DNA of 64,000 bases from an uncultured cyanobacterium (lineage in GTDB: Bacteria > Cyanobacteriota > Cyanobacteriia > Cyanobacteriales > FACHB-T130): positions 1-64,000 of the forward strand of contig CAKZHE010000265.1 in NCBI GenBank assembly GCA_936920195.1. The letters run 5' to 3'. The notes beneath the pieces are model-generated. The model was not told where the DNA came from and did not search any database. It saw only the letters and a list, made by a program, of their open reading frames with translations. Below, piece by piece: positions 56,302 through 64,000 of the stretch (the stretch's first letter is position 1; every line of letters begins with the position of its first letter). Position numbers and translations under genes: made by a program.

Positions 56302-58806
56302 CTACTTTTTAGGCGATCGCCAATCTTGAATCGCCTTTTCAGGCCACATCCAATTATTACTCAACTTATCCGGTTGGAAATTTACTGGATCGTCTGCCAT
56401 CACCTTTTGACGCAATTTCAAAGATTCATTTAGCAGACTTTTTTTCTTATCTTCAGGTTGAGTTTGGGCTAATTGTTGCAAACCTAGGGACAACCCCGCA
56501 TAGGTAGTTAAAGTATCTTTATTAGAAGCGATCGCCGTCGGATTTTTCTTTTGTTCGCTCTTGGCTAAGGCATCAAACCAAACTTGAATGGCTCGGTCAT
56601 ATTTGCCCTCAGCATAATAGGCAAAACCCAAAGCATTGCGATAACTAATAATATCGGGAGCGGTGGCGATCGCTTGTTCCCAATAGCGTCGAGCATCGTC
56701 TAAACTATAGTCTTTATTACCCCTTTGAATTGATTCCCAAGCCAAACGCCCCCGCAAAAAATTAATTGTGGGATGATCGATCTGCTGTTTTGGGACTGCT
56801 TCTAAAGCCGCTCTGCCCTGGGATAGCGCCCCTCGGTTAAACAGTTCTTCTACCGCTGACTTCCCCGCCACCAAATCCCCTTGGGTAAAGCGCTCAATTG
56901 CTAAAGCAGTCAAGGAAGAAGTATCAACTTTAGGTAAATTAGAACTGACAGGAGAGGGAGAAACATTAGTTAAAGGTGGCACTGCAGCCGATTCCACAGG
57001 TTGCGGCTGGCGATTTTGAAATCCCCACACTCCTAACAGGGCAACAGCCGCGATCGTAGTCAGGCCAAAAACTCCCCATAATAAAGGGGAAACCCGCTCA
57101 TTGCGCCGCCAATCTCTAAATAATGAGGTGGAAGGATTTAATAGCTGCGTCTTCCCTTGCCCAGGGCTGCGTGGGCGAGCCGGGGAAGGGGCGCTCAAAG
57201 CAACTGCCCGTGGTGGAGCGGAAGACGAATCTGAGTCCATTGGATCGCAGGGTAATGAAGCCCCTGATTCTCCCTTGGGAGATTGATTGGGTGGCGATTC
57301 TGCACCCTTTAAACCATTAAATTCCTTGGTTCCTGGAAAATTTGCTGGGGGAATTCCAGTATCGCTAGCTGGTAGCTGGCGAAACAAATCTGCAATCAAT
57401 GCCGCCGCTTCCGGATCTGACTCCTCTGATTCAAAATTACCAGGATCTCCTGCTTCCGCCCAGATCCCACTGCCAAAACCATTGAGGGCATCGGTGGGGA
57501 GCAAGATGGAACCGTTGGGATAATTGCGGGAATTAAACTTAGAAACGGCTAATTCTGGGTAAAAAGCGTCCTCTTCTTCCTCTACCCAAAAAGCTTCTTC
57601 GGGATTTGGTACTGCGAGAGCGGCGGTTAATTCTATTTCCCGGTCATTTTGGGACAGAAAGCCGTCAAATTCTGATTGCAGATAGAGGACAGGCAAAGCC
57701 CAATATAATTGGTTCGATCCATAGGCCGAAATTAGCCCTTGGCGAGCGCGGCTCAAACTCAAGTCAATCGGGTAGCCTTGATTGAGGTTGCGATAGAACA
57801 ATCTAGTTAGGGTGAGGGCAACTTCATCGGGAATCCTTTCTGCCATTGCTAATACGCTGGGAATGCCCCGTTTAATTAAGGCTTGAGCGAGGTTATCTTG
57901 TCCGCTGGCAGAAGTTTGTGCTGGGGCGCTATAGGCTCCCCGACAGGAATTGAGCAGGGCAATTTGGACTCCATTATTGGCTAAGAGTCCTGCCAAATCG
58001 TCGCCACTTAAGGTTTCTGTCAGGCCAGTTTTGCCGCTGACTAGATAGAGGCCGCCGCCTGCCTCTCCAGCACTGCTGTGACCGGAATAATGAAAAATCT
58101 GATACTGCCCCATTTCTAAGGCTTGGGTGAGTTGTTCTCGACCGGGCTGTTCGAGGATTTTTAGTTGGATGGTAGACAAACCATTACTGGCGCGGCTGCG
58201 GAGTTCGGCTTGCAGATGTTGGGCTTCTTGCTTTAAGGCCAAACTTTCGCGATCGCTGGGAGCCGCGATCGCCATTAAAATCTTTAAAGGTTGATTTTCT
58301 CCAAAGAAACTTTCTAGGGGGGGGAAGCGCTTTTCGGCAATTTGATAGCGGGAAAAAGCCACATCTGCCCCGGTAGCCAAAGGGCGATCGCCATCGTGGA
58401 GAACTTCCCAAGGCAGGCGGGGCAAGCGATTGCCCTTCAATCCCAACCGCAAACGCAATACTAAACGTTGATTTTCGGCGATCGCTTGGGCGCGAATCCA
58501 GCTATCGCGCAAGCTGCCATGAAACAAAGCATGATAAAGTTGTTGACCAAGGGCAACCAAATTCGGTGGGGATTGAGTTGATAAAGCTTCCGGCGATCGC
58601 TTTCCCGAAGTATCCCCTTGCAGCAACTCAAATAAAGGATCGTTCATCAGTTGCCGCGACTGGGCTAACCAATCATCCACAGGCCATTTTACCTGTTCCT
58701 CTGCCAACGGCACTCCCGGCGCAACTCGTTCCAGGCGCACCAAATACTGATCTTGCTCCCCTAGGGGAGTGACGGAAATATGAAATTCCTGGGCTAATGA
58801 GGCCAT
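56302..58806 (-). CDS. CHAT-domain (caspase-like) protein with membrane helix and TPR repeats
   Basis: 834 residues. N-terminal domain (1-130), then a CHAT protease domain (about 130-380) with His243 in FHYSGHSSAGEAGGG and Cys288 in IALLNSCRGAYS, the expected catalytic pair. A long acidic, Pro/Ser-rich linker (about 385-570) leads to one membrane helix (LLWGVFGLTTIAAVALLGVW, about 575-594) and then C-terminal TPR-like repeats (about 630-800, with YYAEGKYDRAIQVWFDALA). The protease part is probably on the cytosolic side and the TPR part across the membrane, or the reverse; orientation cannot be settled. A substrate is not known. Related CHAT proteins act in stress and immune pathways. Confidence 0.9.
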   Translation of the reverse strand: MASLAQEFHISVTPLGEQDQYLVRLERVAPGVPLAEEQVKWPVDDWLAQSRQLMNDPLFELLQGDTSGKRSPEALSTQSPPNLVALGQQLYHALFHGSLRDSWIRAQAIAENQRLVLRLRLGLKGNRLPRLPWEVLHDGDRPLATGADVAFSRYQIAEKRFPPLESFFGENQPLKILMAIAAPSDRESLALKQEAQHLQAELRSRASNGLSTIQLKILEQPGREQLTQALEMGQYQIFHYSGHSSAGEAGGGLYLVSGKTGLTETLSGDDLAGLLANNGVQIALLNSCRGAYSAPAQTSASGQDNLAQALIKRGIPSVLAMAERIPDEVALTLTRLFYRNLNQGYPIDLSLSRARQGLISAYGSNQLYWALPVLYLQSEFDGFLSQNDREIELTAALAVPNPEEAFWVEEEEDAFYPELAVSKFNSRNYPNGSILLPTDALNGFGSGIWAEAGDPGNFESEESDPEAAALIADLFRQLPASDTGIPPANFPGTKEFNGLKGAESPPNQSPKGESGASLPCDPMDSDSSSAPPRAVALSAPSPARPRSPGQGKTQLLNPSTSLFRDWRRNERVSPLLWGVFGLTTIAAVALLGVWGFQNRQPQPVESAAVPPLTNVSPSPVSSNLPKVDTSSLTALAIERFTQGDLVAGKSAVEELFNRGALSQGRAALEAVPKQQIDHPTINFLRGRLAWESIQRGNKDYSLDDARRYWEQAIATAPDIISYRNALGFAYYAEGKYDRAIQVWFDALAKSEQKKNPTAIASNKDTLTTYAGLSLGLQQLAQTQPEDKKKSLLNESLKLRQKVMADDPVNFQPDKLSNNWMWPEKAIQDWRSPKK

Positions 58807-59817: not shown

Positions 59818-61137
59818 TTACACTTCCTTCGGCTTTAACAAAATCTCCCGTTCGCTAATTGCCATCGCATGAGCCGGAAACCCTTCATAGGTAGCTAAAG
59901 TGTGGGTAGTTTTCTTTAATCTATCAAACCCTTCTGGAGTCAAATAACCAATTCCCGAACGCTTGAGAAAATCAAACACTGATACGGCTGAATAGGAGCG
60001 CGCAAAACCCCCTGTAGGCAGAATCGCATTGACTCCCAAGCAATAATTGGCAGTGGGAATGGGCGTATAAGCACCCAGAAGAATTTCGCCAGCATTTTTA
60101 ATTTTTCCTAAAATGCTAAAAGGTTCCTTGATTAAGATCTCCAAGTGTTCCGGGGCATAATCATTTAGAAAATCAATTGATTCTTCTAAACTTTCCGTTA
60201 ATAAAATGCCGCCGTAGGACGATAAACCTTTCTCGCAAAATTCCCTGCGCCAATCTGGGAGCCGCTTCAAATAATCAGCAAGAAACTCAATTGCTTTTAG
60301 GGCAAAGGATTCGCTATGAGTTAATAACAACGCTGCGGATTCTGGCCCATGTTCGGCTTCAATTAATAAATCCAAGGCTGCTAATTGAGGATCGGTAGTT
60401 TCATCGGTCAAAATAATTGATTCGCTAGGACCTGCGGGCAATCCTACATCAACCGTACCATATAATAACCGTTTGGCTGCCGAACCATAAACATTGCAAG
60501 GCCCGGTAATTTTATCCACCTTGGGAATTGTTTCTGTCCCCAGAGCCATCGATGCGATCGCCTGGATACCTCCTAGTTTATACACATCTTTCACCCCTGC
60601 CATCTCTGCAGCAACTAGGGAAGCAGGTTCGACATTGCCATCTTTATCGGGAGGGGTACAAACAATCACTCTGGGAACCTTTGCCACCATTGTTGGTACT
60701 GCCAACATCAACATCACGGAAGGGAAAGCACCTTTTCCTCGTGGCACATATAACCCGGCGCTGGCAATGGGAGTCACCTTTTCCCCGGCAAAAACTCCCG
60801 GCTGAATCTCCGCCAATTGGATTTCTTCCGGCATCTGGCGCTGGTGAACTTCCTTGATATTAGCAAAAGCTTGGGCGATCGCGGCCTTAATTTCTGGTTC
60901 AATGGCCTGGTGCGCTGCGGCAAACTCTGCCTCAGTCACCTTAAGATTATTAATTTCTGCCCCAGCATAGTCAAACTTGCGGACATATTCCAGCACCCCC
61001 GCATCGCCATGCTGTTTAATCTTGTCAATTACCTCTTTCGCAATCGAGAGGGCATTTTCAATATCTAACTCAGCTCGTCTTTTTAACGCCGCCACTTCCT
61101 CCCGCGTCATGGTTGCCAGTCGGAGAATCCTCGTCAT
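59818..61137 (-). CDS. hisD: Histidinol dehydrogenase
   Basis: 439 residues, the normal length. It oxidises L-histidinol to L-histidine in two NAD+-dependent steps with zinc. Visible motifs: ITGPCNVYGSAAKRLLYG, VDVGLPAGPSESIILTDE, LLIEAEHGPESAALLLT, and the zinc and catalytic region YAPEHLEILIKEP with IPTANYCLGVNAILPTGG. The ATG is preceded by GAGGAGGA, 6 bp away, which decides the start. No other his genes are beside it, as is common in cyanobacteria. Confidence 0.96.
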   Translation of the reverse strand: MTRILRLATMTREEVAALKRRAELDIENALSIAKEVIDKIKQHGDAGVLEYVRKFDYAGAEINNLKVTEAEFAAAHQAIEPEIKAAIAQAFANIKEVHQRQMPEEIQLAEIQPGVFAGEKVTPIASAGLYVPRGKGAFPSVMLMLAVPTMVAKVPRVIVCTPPDKDGNVEPASLVAAEMAGVKDVYKLGGIQAIASMALGTETIPKVDKITGPCNVYGSAAKRLLYGTVDVGLPAGPSESIILTDETTDPQLAALDLLIEAEHGPESAALLLTHSESFALKAIEFLADYLKRLPDWRREFCEKGLSSYGGILLTESLEESIDFLNDYAPEHLEILIKEPFSILGKIKNAGEILLGAYTPIPTANYCLGVNAILPTGGFARSYSAVSVFDFLKRSGIGYLTPEGFDRLKKTTHTLATYEGFPAHAMAISEREILLKPKEV

Positions 61138-61224: not shown

Positions 61225-63225
61225 CTAATTATCCCAAAAATAGCCTTTTTCCACCGTTGTATAGCGATCGCCTGGATGATATTTTAGCAGATAGGAACGG
61301 GCGATCGCCTCCAATTCTCCTAATCGCTCAAATTCCATTTGCCCAATTTCTGTATCTGTAGAGAGTAAAATCACTTGATGACTAGCATAGGGAAAATAGC
61401 GCTCGACTAAATTTTGGCGATGGGAAGAATCTAACCTCCCCAAAGGGGTATCAATTACCACAGGTAATTTTCGCCCTGAAACTCGCGCCAAACCCCATAA
61501 AAAAGCAATAGCTAATAATTGCTTTTCCCCCGCTGATAGTCGATGTTTAGGTAAAATTTTCCCATCCGGATCGTATAGAGAAATCCTAAAAGTTTCGGTA
61601 TCAATTGCCAGACGATGAACTAAATCCGACTTGTGCAACAAATAGCGAAAACATTCTGTCACCTCCAACTCTAATTTATTCAACTTCTTCAAAGTCAACT
61701 TTTCTCGAAATAACTTTAAAGTGACTTGCACCTTGGCAATGGAAGTAATAATATGCTGATTGCTTTTCAATTTTAAGTTTTCTGCGGCATACTCTGCCAA
61801 ATCCTTTTTAGTTTTTGCGATCGCTTTTTGCAATTCATCGCAGCGGCGTTGGGCAATTTCACAGTCAGCTTTAGTTTTAAAAAACTCTTTTTGGGCAACT
61901 TTAACCAAATTTTCTAATTCTTGATAATCTTCCGGTGCGGCTGCCGTGGCGATTTGCCGTTCTAGCGCATCAATATCAACTTCTAACTTTTCCAGTTCCG
62001 CTAACTTTCCCGTTGCCTTGGTGACATCTCCAGGAATAACTAACTTCAACAACTCGTCTAATTGAGTTAATTGTTCTGCTTCTGCCAATAACCAAGAACT
62101 TTCATTAGTCGCAATTTCCTTTTCTAAGTCTTGGTTTTCAGCTTGCAAAAAACCTTGGATTTTGGCAACTTTCTCAACCGAAAATGCTTGTTCAGTAATA
62201 TAATTAATTAAACGGCGATCGCGCTCTTGCAAAACCCGCCAAGCTGCCTTAGCTTCCTGATGTCTCTGCTCCTTAATTCCTTGTCCTTGCGCTTGTACCA
62301 GTAATGGGGAAATTAACGCCAAGGGTAAACTTTCCGCTGCCAACTCCTTCAGATCTTTTTGGACAATTTCGGCTCGTTCCTGCAACTCCCGTTGTTGAGT
62401 TTCTAAAAGAGTGCGATCGCGAGCAACTTTCCCCCCTTCGGCTACAAATTGATTTAAAGCCTGTTGATACTTTGCTTCTGCCAAAATTACCTGTTCATTC
62501 AAACCTGTCAATTCGTCATTTGCCGCTACCAAATCAGCTTCTTGCTGGTTCAACTTTTGTTCGATTTCTGCCAAAGTCAGCAACTCTTTAGCACTAGCTG
62601 TTTCCTTCCGTTTCCGATTTGCCAAAATTTCTAAATCCTGCCCCAGACGTTCTGATAATTCCAACCCTAATAGGGATTGAATAGCTTGGACAACCACCGG
62701 AGGAGGAACTTCTTGTTCTGCCAATTCTTTAACCTGTTCCCCATCAAACAGAAACAAATTAGAAATGCCTATCGGCAGCAAGTTTTCAATATATTGATCC
62801 CACGTATTTGTCAATGCTTCATCCTTCCATCCATCAGCATCGCCATATTCTAATATTCCCAAAGTATCCTTGCCCTCTTTAGGATTAGCTTCCCAATATC
62901 TGACAATTTTGAACTTTTTTAAATCCCCATCTTCAATAATCTCAAAACTTAATTCAATCCGAGTTTGTGCCACGGGAGAAGCACTACGATTAACTGACTG
63001 AGCCAGAAAATCACTATAGCTCAAATTGCCCCGCGTAGAACACTGAGCGCGAGCGCCGTACAAAGCCAGCCGAATCGCATCAATTAAAGTAGTTTTTCCA
63101 CCGCCATTCATCCCCCCAAAAAGGATAATTGGGCAGATATTACCATCAATTTCAGGATCGAGATTAATTACTTGCCGACCGACATAGGGACCAAAGTTTT
63201 CAATAATGAGTTCGCGGAAAATCAT
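61225..63225 (-). CDS. dndD: DndD-like SMC-type ATPase (DNA phosphorothioation family)
   Basis: 666 residues. N-terminal MIFRELIIENFGPYVGRQVI and GGMNGGGKTTLIDAIRLALY (Walker A at 37-46), followed by IGISNLFLFDGEQVKELA, as in DndD. A long coiled coil spans about 215-520. The C-terminal half of the ATPase has HRLSAGEKQLLAIAFLWGLA, then LPVVIDTPLGRLDSSHRQNL (Walker B and D-loop). In DND systems DndD acts with DndA-C-E in sulfur modification of DNA backbones. No dndB, dndC or dndE gene is adjacent, so this may be an orphan, a paralogue with other work, or part of a scattered system. Confidence 0.85.
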   Translation of the reverse strand: MIFRELIIENFGPYVGRQVINLDPEIDGNICPIILFGGMNGGGKTTLIDAIRLALYGARAQCSTRGNLSYSDFLAQSVNRSASPVAQTRIELSFEIIEDGDLKKFKIVRYWEANPKEGKDTLGILEYGDADGWKDEALTNTWDQYIENLLPIGISNLFLFDGEQVKELAEQEVPPPVVVQAIQSLLGLELSERLGQDLEILANRKRKETASAKELLTLAEIEQKLNQQEADLVAANDELTGLNEQVILAEAKYQQALNQFVAEGGKVARDRTLLETQQRELQERAEIVQKDLKELAAESLPLALISPLLVQAQGQGIKEQRHQEAKAAWRVLQERDRRLINYITEQAFSVEKVAKIQGFLQAENQDLEKEIATNESSWLLAEAEQLTQLDELLKLVIPGDVTKATGKLAELEKLEVDIDALERQIATAAAPEDYQELENLVKVAQKEFFKTKADCEIAQRRCDELQKAIAKTKKDLAEYAAENLKLKSNQHIITSIAKVQVTLKLFREKLTLKKLNKLELEVTECFRYLLHKSDLVHRLAIDTETFRISLYDPDGKILPKHRLSAGEKQLLAIAFLWGLARVSGRKLPVVIDTPLGRLDSSHRQNLVERYFPYASHQVILLSTDTEIGQMEFERLGELEAIARSYLLKYHPGDRYTTVEKGYFWDN

Positions 63226-63301: not shown

Positions 63302-63390
63302 AGGACTTACGCAGACCATCTACATATAGTGTTTTGTAGGGGCAATCCCCCCGTGGTTGCCCCTATTCCTAGGATAGTTGCGTAAGTCCT
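63302..63390. mobile_element. MITE-like element, copy 2 (related to the one at 3.3 kb)
   Basis: 89-bp element with perfect 12-bp terminal inverted repeats AGGACTTACGCA (63302-63313) and TGCGTAAGTCCT (63379-63390), and an inner inverted pair GGGGCAA/TTGCCCC. It matches the element at 3311-3421 in opposite orientation but lacks that copy's middle insert. It lies between dndD and argG and has no coding potential. Confidence 0.75.
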
Positions 63391-63419: not shown

Positions 63420-63469
63420 TAAAAAAGGCGATCGCTCTCTACTTTAATCTTAAAATCAAGAGCGATCGC
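63420..63469 (-). terminator. argG: Rho-independent-type terminator of argG, built from HIP1 sites
   Basis: On the minus strand, 18 bp after the argG stop: an 11-bp stem GCGATCGCTCT (63428-63438) with AGAGCGATCGC (63459-63469), a 20-nt loop, then a T-run (CCTTTTTTATTC in the transcript direction). Stem plus T-run in the right place make this the best terminator in the window. Confidence 0.75.
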
Positions 63470-63487
63470 TTCTTGCCTACCTAATTA

Positions 63488-64000
63488 TCAACGATTTTTG
63501 TCTGACCACAGACGAGTAGGCAAACCCCAAACATAGATAAAGCCTTCAGCAGCTTTGTGATCGAAAGTGTCTTCGGCTCCATAGGTAGCCAAATCGTGAC
63601 TGTAGATGGAATTTTCTGATTTCCGTCCGACAATATTGGCATTACCTTTAAACAATTTCAGCCGTACCGTTCCCGATACCTGCTTTTGGGTTTCCTGAAT
63701 AAAGCCATCTAAAGCAGCTTTCAAAGGACTGTACCACAAACCGTTATAAATTAACTGGCTGTAGGTTTCTTCCAAACCCCGTTTGTATTGGGTAACATCT
63801 CTTGTCAGCGTTAAACTTTCCAAATCCCGGTGAGCGTGAATTAAAACTAACAAAGCTGGGGTTTCGTAGATTTCCCGTGACTTAATGCCCACCAAGCGAT
63901 TTTCAATCATATCAATCCGTCCGATGCCGTGTCTGCCGACAATTTGATTTAGTTGTAAAATCAACTGCACCGGATCGATAGCATTGCCATTCAAGGCTAC
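63488..64000 (-). CDS. argG: Argininosuccinate synthase, C-terminal part (cut by window edge)
   Basis: About 170 residues visible; the frame runs out of the right edge, so the start is outside and the first Met in view is internal. Family segments: [21 protein letters not shown] in parts, [41 protein letters not shown] and [14 protein letters not shown] at the end. The enzyme joins citrulline and aspartate with ATP in arginine synthesis. The final stop at 63488 is followed by a terminator. Confidence 0.93.

Follow-up and report, generated by a model that had tools for sequence, protein, structure and literature searches.

A dndD gene between argG and hisD in a cyanobacterium: probable ATPase of a scattered DNA phosphorothioation set

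The gene at positions 61225–63225 of the window (i.e., the whole stretch of 64,000 nucleotides of contig C265 analysed here) encodes a real DndD and, as judged from sequence comparisons, is probably the ATPase of a DNA phosphorothioation (Dnd) set whose members are scattered. The lone dndD is probably no orphan, because its partners are found dispersed through the same genome, as they are in several related bacteria; an ancestral cluster was likely broken up, while purifying selection preserved its parts, which come together at the protein level.

The dndD gene and its surroundings

The features of the window to which the following description refers are:

59818–61137, minus strand: hisD, histidinol dehydrogenase (TIGR00069, 464 bits), downstream neighbour of dndD, 87-bp gap
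61225–63225, minus strand: dndD, ABC-type ATPase of 666 amino acids, DndD equivalog, without CxC motif
63302–63390, no strand assigned: palindromic element of 89 bp between argG and dndD, its 12-bp terminal inverted repeats (AGGACTTACGCA) being exact
63423–63474, no strand assigned: imperfect inverted repeat with 25-nt arms, 80% complementary, two GCGATCGC octamers, then a T run on the minus strand
63488–64000, minus strand: argG, C-terminal part, continuing beyond the window end (PF20979, 243 bits; NF001770), upstream neighbour of dndD, 262-bp gap

In a profile search the dndD product matches TIGR03185, the DndD equivalog, with 650.1 bits (cut-off 245.85), the alignment extending over residues 1–663 of the protein and 1–650 of the 650 positions of the profile, and contains the ATPase motifs GGMNGGGKTT, LSAGEKQ and VVIDTPLGRLDS, which we take to be Walker A, signature and Walker B, respectively; the initial annotation, which had recognized the N- and C-terminal ATPase parts of DndD, is borne out on this point. 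A CxC motif is absent from the 666 residues. Among the PADLOC models PbeC ranks first (914 bits) and DndD second (766 bits); the name DndD was retained over PbeC because PMC10853773, in its available text, defines PbeC as having a CxC hook and DndD as lacking it, and PbeC, considered as a name by virtue of this top match, was dropped for a full-length DndD equivalog without CxC. A search of solved structures yielded three weak Rad50 matches for the window DndD and no match for either DndC or DndE.

That hisD and argG flank dndD and that no dnd gene adjoins it had been noticed earlier; both flanks are confirmed and the DndC, DndE and DndB matches of the genome lie on other contigs. The gene following hisD encodes a DUF29 protein, and a CHAT-domain protein with weak TPR matches is encoded at 56302–58806. 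Neither the C-terminal part of argG nor hisD was seen beside dndD in the relatives' loci examined, many of which comprise only ~1.5 kb on each side.

The 89-bp palindromic element, whose DNA fold z-score is −5.4, appears to be MITE-like. Within 148 kb of the own genome, near-identical 87-bp cores of this element occur on C231 (L014:15271–15357), ~3.5 kb beyond the dndB-like gene described below, and on C61 (L007, C61:29064). The element could have acted as a mediator of rearrangement, but its presence beside dndD on one side only and the fact that its copies are not rare count against this role. One 12-bp terminal repeat is found also on C171 (L046:7494–7505), and the assembly break at the end of this contig may be due to the repeat, since only 63 bases separate the two. 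As to the imperfect inverted repeat at 63423–63474, whose octamers, presumably HIP1, suggest a cyanobacterial source, it may function as the transcription terminator of argG; dndD, being separated from argG by this T-run repeat and by the 89-bp element, may have a transcription start of its own. Consensus scans of the region found promoters at chance level (10 vs 9.1 expected) and terminators no more often than by chance (3 vs 5.1 expected) and listed neither the 89-bp element nor the 63423–63474 repeat, the latter being absent from the terminator output as well.

Dnd partners and their separation in the same genome

The genome from which the window derives (G000) comprises 5.70 Mb in 326 contigs, is 95% complete with a contamination estimate of 0.07%, and encodes DndC, DndD and DndE. 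Whole-genome searches gave a single match for DndC, on contig C231 (704 bits), and a single match for DndE, on contig C9 (PF08870, 147 bits; TIGR03184, 132 bits). The DndB search likewise gave a single match, on C231, beside dndC and divergent to it; this DndB-like protein scores 47 bits with PF14072 (cut-off 29) and 177 bits with TIGR03187 DGQHR (cut-off 59) and has no PADLOC DndB match at 1e-5, the DndB label being weak. The gene adjoining it, at L014:11859–13136, is presumably TnpB-like. On C9, dndE is directly followed by the gene of a dnd-associated methyltransferase (TIGR04096, 723 bits), and upstream of dndE a tandem of GmrSD_N and RiboL-PSP-HEPN genes is present (L015:1410–3729), the first of which matches PADLOC NsnA with 227 bits and which perhaps constitutes an extra defence pair.

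Thus, among the four partners whose search had been proposed in the initial annotation (dndA, B, C and E), C and E are found and B is represented by a B-like protein, whereas no DndA over the cut-off (480) is encoded in the genome; the three matches to the DndA model, at 325–449 bits, are probably IscS/NifS-like. The DptH profile (TIGR03237) of the DndFGH restriction module had no match in any of 40 genomes, its control also having matched nowhere.

A second DndD over the cut-off was not found in the genome, and a protein search with the window protein returned no second copy. Only a DndD-like paralogue on C171 was seen, at 175 bits vs the cut-off of 246, so that a second dndD elsewhere in the genome was dismissed; a complete dnd operon having its own dndD, which the initial annotation had named as evidence against its reading, was looked for and not found. 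With DndC, DndE, the DndB-like protein and the methyltransferase on other contigs and no other DndD over the cut-off, the earlier suggestion that the gene might be part of a dispersed set is supported.

The C171 paralogue has a CLC motif at 338, scores 1,112 bits with PADLOC PbeC and is paired with a restriction-type helicase (TIGR04095, 646 bits), a family defined, in the available text of PMC3226654 (2011), by phylogenetic profile as a phosphorothioation-dependent restriction enzyme. This PbeC-like ATPase with its PbeA-like helicase, found near dnd genes in several relatives, resembles the PbeABCD systems of the CxC-clade ABC ATPases as presented in the text available of PMC10853773. Unlike in those systems, the helicase (L046:2949–4532) is matched by the PADLOC PbeA models only from ~residue 244 on, and the ATPase concerned is the paralogue, not the window gene. 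The N-terminal part of the helicase, without PbeA match, is called nuclease in what is accessible of the same paper. Directly before PbeC is the gene of a small protein (L046:2421–2828) with ~50 conserved residues, a candidate PbeB, likewise present in eight loci of seven relatives. A dnd_assoc_4 gene (TIGR04062) is located near PbeC in several relatives, but the stretches of the own genome that were examined do not contain it.

Could the separation be an artefact of assembly or the product of a contaminant contig? The number of contigs and the small size of two of them (C9 and C171, ~7.5 kb each) might suggest so, but this explanation is extremely improbable. Indeed, a contig break cannot explain the separation because dndD lies 60–61 kb from either end of C265 and the sole DndC and DndE matches are on other contigs, and it is on this distance to the contig ends that the artefact was rejected; furthermore, the ends of C231 are ~11.4 and 47.4 kb away from dndC, the contamination estimate is low, and two relatives show the same separation within contigs of chromosome size, C, D and E being 0.9–3.3 Mb apart in G014 and 0.27–1.4 Mb apart in G017. 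On contigs of this size the D–E distance amounts to 947 kb in G014, 767 kb in G016 and 1,129 kb in G017.

Co-occurrence, probable break-up and descent across the order

In a sample of 40 genomes of the same order, own genome included, DndD is over the cut-off in 34, DndC in 33 and DndE in 32. All three are present in 30 genomes, none in five (G012, G015, G026, G034 and G035, G015 being 86% and G034 61% complete) and a subset in the remaining five, namely C+D in G007 and G009, D+E in G023 and G031, and C in G033. The co-occurrence of the three proteins, with kinship among the 40 genomes ignored, corresponds to Fisher p values of 0.0002 (C/D), 0.0015 (C/E) and 0.000007 (D/E), and their pairwise distances, in 31 sets and again ignoring kinship, are correlated with r of 0.73 (D–E), 0.65 (C–D) and 0.52 (C–E). 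In one genome (G002, contamination estimate 4%) two C-D-E sets are found on different contigs (L049 and L060).

These data bear on the other option left by the initial annotation, namely that of an orphan ATPase. An orphan or repurposed DndD would work alone or with other DNA-repair proteins in a Rad50/SbcC-like fashion, the distant dndC and dndE being unrelated survivors. The solitary position of dndD beside housekeeping genes, the distant Rad50 similarity and the two genomes having C and D without a DndE match are in keeping with such a premise, which is nevertheless decidedly unlikely in view of the equivalog-level score of the protein and of the joint occurrence of DndD with DndC and DndE, there being not a single case among the 40 genomes in which DndD over the cut-off is accompanied by neither of them. 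The orphan DndD was rejected, partner genes having been found in the same genome.

With "near" set by us at 8 kb, the 33 sets from 32 genomes are sorted into 16 with all genes near (15 genomes), eight with only E apart, two with only C apart, five with all genes apart (G000, G014, G017, G027 and G039) and two without DndE match; in the latter C and D are near in G007 and on different contigs in G009, where both are within ~2.2 kb of contig ends, which makes the separation of C from D uncertain. Of the eight genomes in which C and D are separated, seven have a DndE, as do 23 of the 24 in which they are near; scattering is unlinked to loss of DndE.

As regards D and E, in the 32 genomes having both the two genes are near in 18 (G031 being placed by hand) and apart in 13 (the own genome and 12 relatives), while G023, with only a partial D, was left unplaced. 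Eleven of these 13 separations are firmly beyond 8 kb, among them those of G003 and G005, in which D and E are 15–18 kb from each other on the same contig. The other two are G028, in which the two genes are at contig ends and would be 1.5 kb apart if the contigs abut, a case scored apart and omitted from the tree counts, and G038, in which abutting contigs would give the minimum distance of 6.5 kb, a case scored apart and retained. At least 10 near/apart changes are required by the DndD tree, which has 31 rows, and at least 11 by the DndC tree, which has 30; the all-apart state requires a minimum of 5 on either tree, these being rough counts because they rest on gene trees with many open forks and do not represent a species-tree test.

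By mapping the own proteins onto the loci of relatives, many of which have these genes in close proximity, the following order, probably the ancestral one, could be pieced together: helicase – small protein – PbeC ... B<>C – D – E – methyltransferase. Among the example loci L053 is without B, L060 without methyltransferase, and L052 and L059 without helicase in the stretch examined. Of this order the own genome retains the sub-blocks B<>C, E–methyltransferase and helicase–small protein–PbeC, with D alone; G039, which retains PbeC with B<>C, and E–methyltransferase, also has D alone, i.e., the same break points. In L053 (G018) the gene just before dndC (L053:10308–11288) scores 102 bits, below the cut-off of 180, with NF045808, a phosphorothioated-DNA-binding restriction endonuclease family.

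The best BLASTP bit scores are obtained with G003 and G005, belonging to the same family as the own genome, for D and E, and with G003 for C. In the DndD tree the window protein belongs to a 99* set together with G003, G005 and five others; the seven family-f1 rows of this tree do not form one clade, the starred branches forcing at least two changes, and in the DndC and DndE trees the protein of the own genome is in no starred set. Furthermore, G003 and G005 are 98–99% alike in D and E vs 82% in C, which suggests gene exchange. Strictly vertical descent is not supported; taken together, the BLASTP, tree and G003/G005 results lead us to infer an inherited cluster that was broken up, with some gene exchange among relatives.

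Selection, function and meaning of the scattered genes

Each of the five all-apart genomes encodes DndC and DndD with intact motifs. The dN/dS of the window dndD is 0.10–0.16 (2 of 6 pairs unsaturated), that of the own dndC 0.07–0.16 and that of the own dndE 0.12–0.20 (5 of 6 pairs unsaturated in both cases), the corresponding values for D in three pairs of relatives having C and D near being 0.11–0.14. The mean identity of the all-apart proteins vs the rest is 0.671 vs 0.694 for C, 0.539 vs 0.578 for D and 0.684 vs 0.743 for E. Decaying sets are present in G033 (L141), where DndC is truncated and DndD represented by a piece of 63 residues, and in G023 (L142), with a partial DndD and no DndC.

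Truncated or missing members such as these, together with the slightly lower likeness to the rest of the proteins of the five all-apart genomes, would fit a broken-up cluster en route to loss, whose parts persist after DNA modification has ended. This is unlikely for the own genome, in which full-length frames, intact motifs and low dN/dS are maintained at synonymous distances near saturation, although the selection recorded could predate the break-up.

In what is accessible of the literature, an IscS-DndC-DndD-DndE complex at about 1:1:1:1 has been described (PMC4611135), and IscS can stand in for DndA (PMC8569181; PMC3519819). If the scattered genes do form a Dnd set, the ancestral cluster would have been disrupted between C and D and between D and E, with its parts remaining under selection, and gene order would be dispensable for the Dnd machine: DndC, DndD and DndE made from separate genes would assemble after translation into the same complex as known, an IscS-kind cysteine desulfurase would pass sulfur to DndC, DndE and DndD would find and open the site with ATP, and sulfur would take the place of a non-bridging oxygen, just as Dnd systems already characterized do it. 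What the own genome has in common with the canonical dndBCDE operons are family-level scores for DndC, DndD and DndE, and for the DndB-like protein whose label is weak, as well as the DndC and DndD motifs; unlike in these operons, its genes are distributed over several contigs, dndD being alone between argG and hisD, and there is no DndA over the cut-off.

Split arrangements of cyanobacterial dnd genes have been reported before. According to the available text of Jian et al. 2021, they occur in various configurations, with incomplete clusters and disordered operon structure (PMC8569181), while a Microcoleus paper, as far as accessible, describes a distance of at least 40 kb between dndBC and dndDE, which are on different contigs, and in a figure legend assigns dndD and dndE of a toxic strain to different contigs (PMC8546630); in the cyanobacteria compared by Frangeul et al. 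2008, dndC-D-E were still clustered despite low synteny (PMC2442094, text in part). Unlike in the published split cases, C, D and E are placed here singly, across 32 genomes belonging to a single order and in some cases on contigs of chromosome size. In a literature search confined to papers without their supplementary files, such as that with the configurations figure of Jian et al., no paper was found that counts separated DndD–DndE pairs in cyanobacteria.

The DndD–DndE gene dyad is given as universal in the available text of PMC10853773, and the D–E separation found here, with DndE on C9 and dndD on C265, conflicts with it; in our reading, the flaw is in the rule and not in the DndD membership of the gene. 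What was already known is thus the existence of split cyanobacterial dnd arrangements, and what is added here is that D and E are separated even within contigs of chromosome size and that their separation recurs.

Outside this order, Dnd has a sporadic occurrence and is mobile as an island. For this cyanobacterial order one may tentatively envisage, as a possibility less well founded than the membership of the window gene in a Dnd set, a resident, near-core chromosomal system with a housekeeping DNA-maintenance or regulatory role, which does not need linkage and in which the D–E pair was split many times, its parts being retained together. Should the scattered dnd genes still modify DNA, annotation based on operons would mislabel many cyanobacteria as "incomplete" or "orphan" with respect to phosphorothioation, and the rule of an always-linked DndD–DndE pair would have to go. 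The genomes in which C, D and E are widely separated lend themselves, as a natural experiment, to asking whether Dnd, a mobile defence, has become resident.
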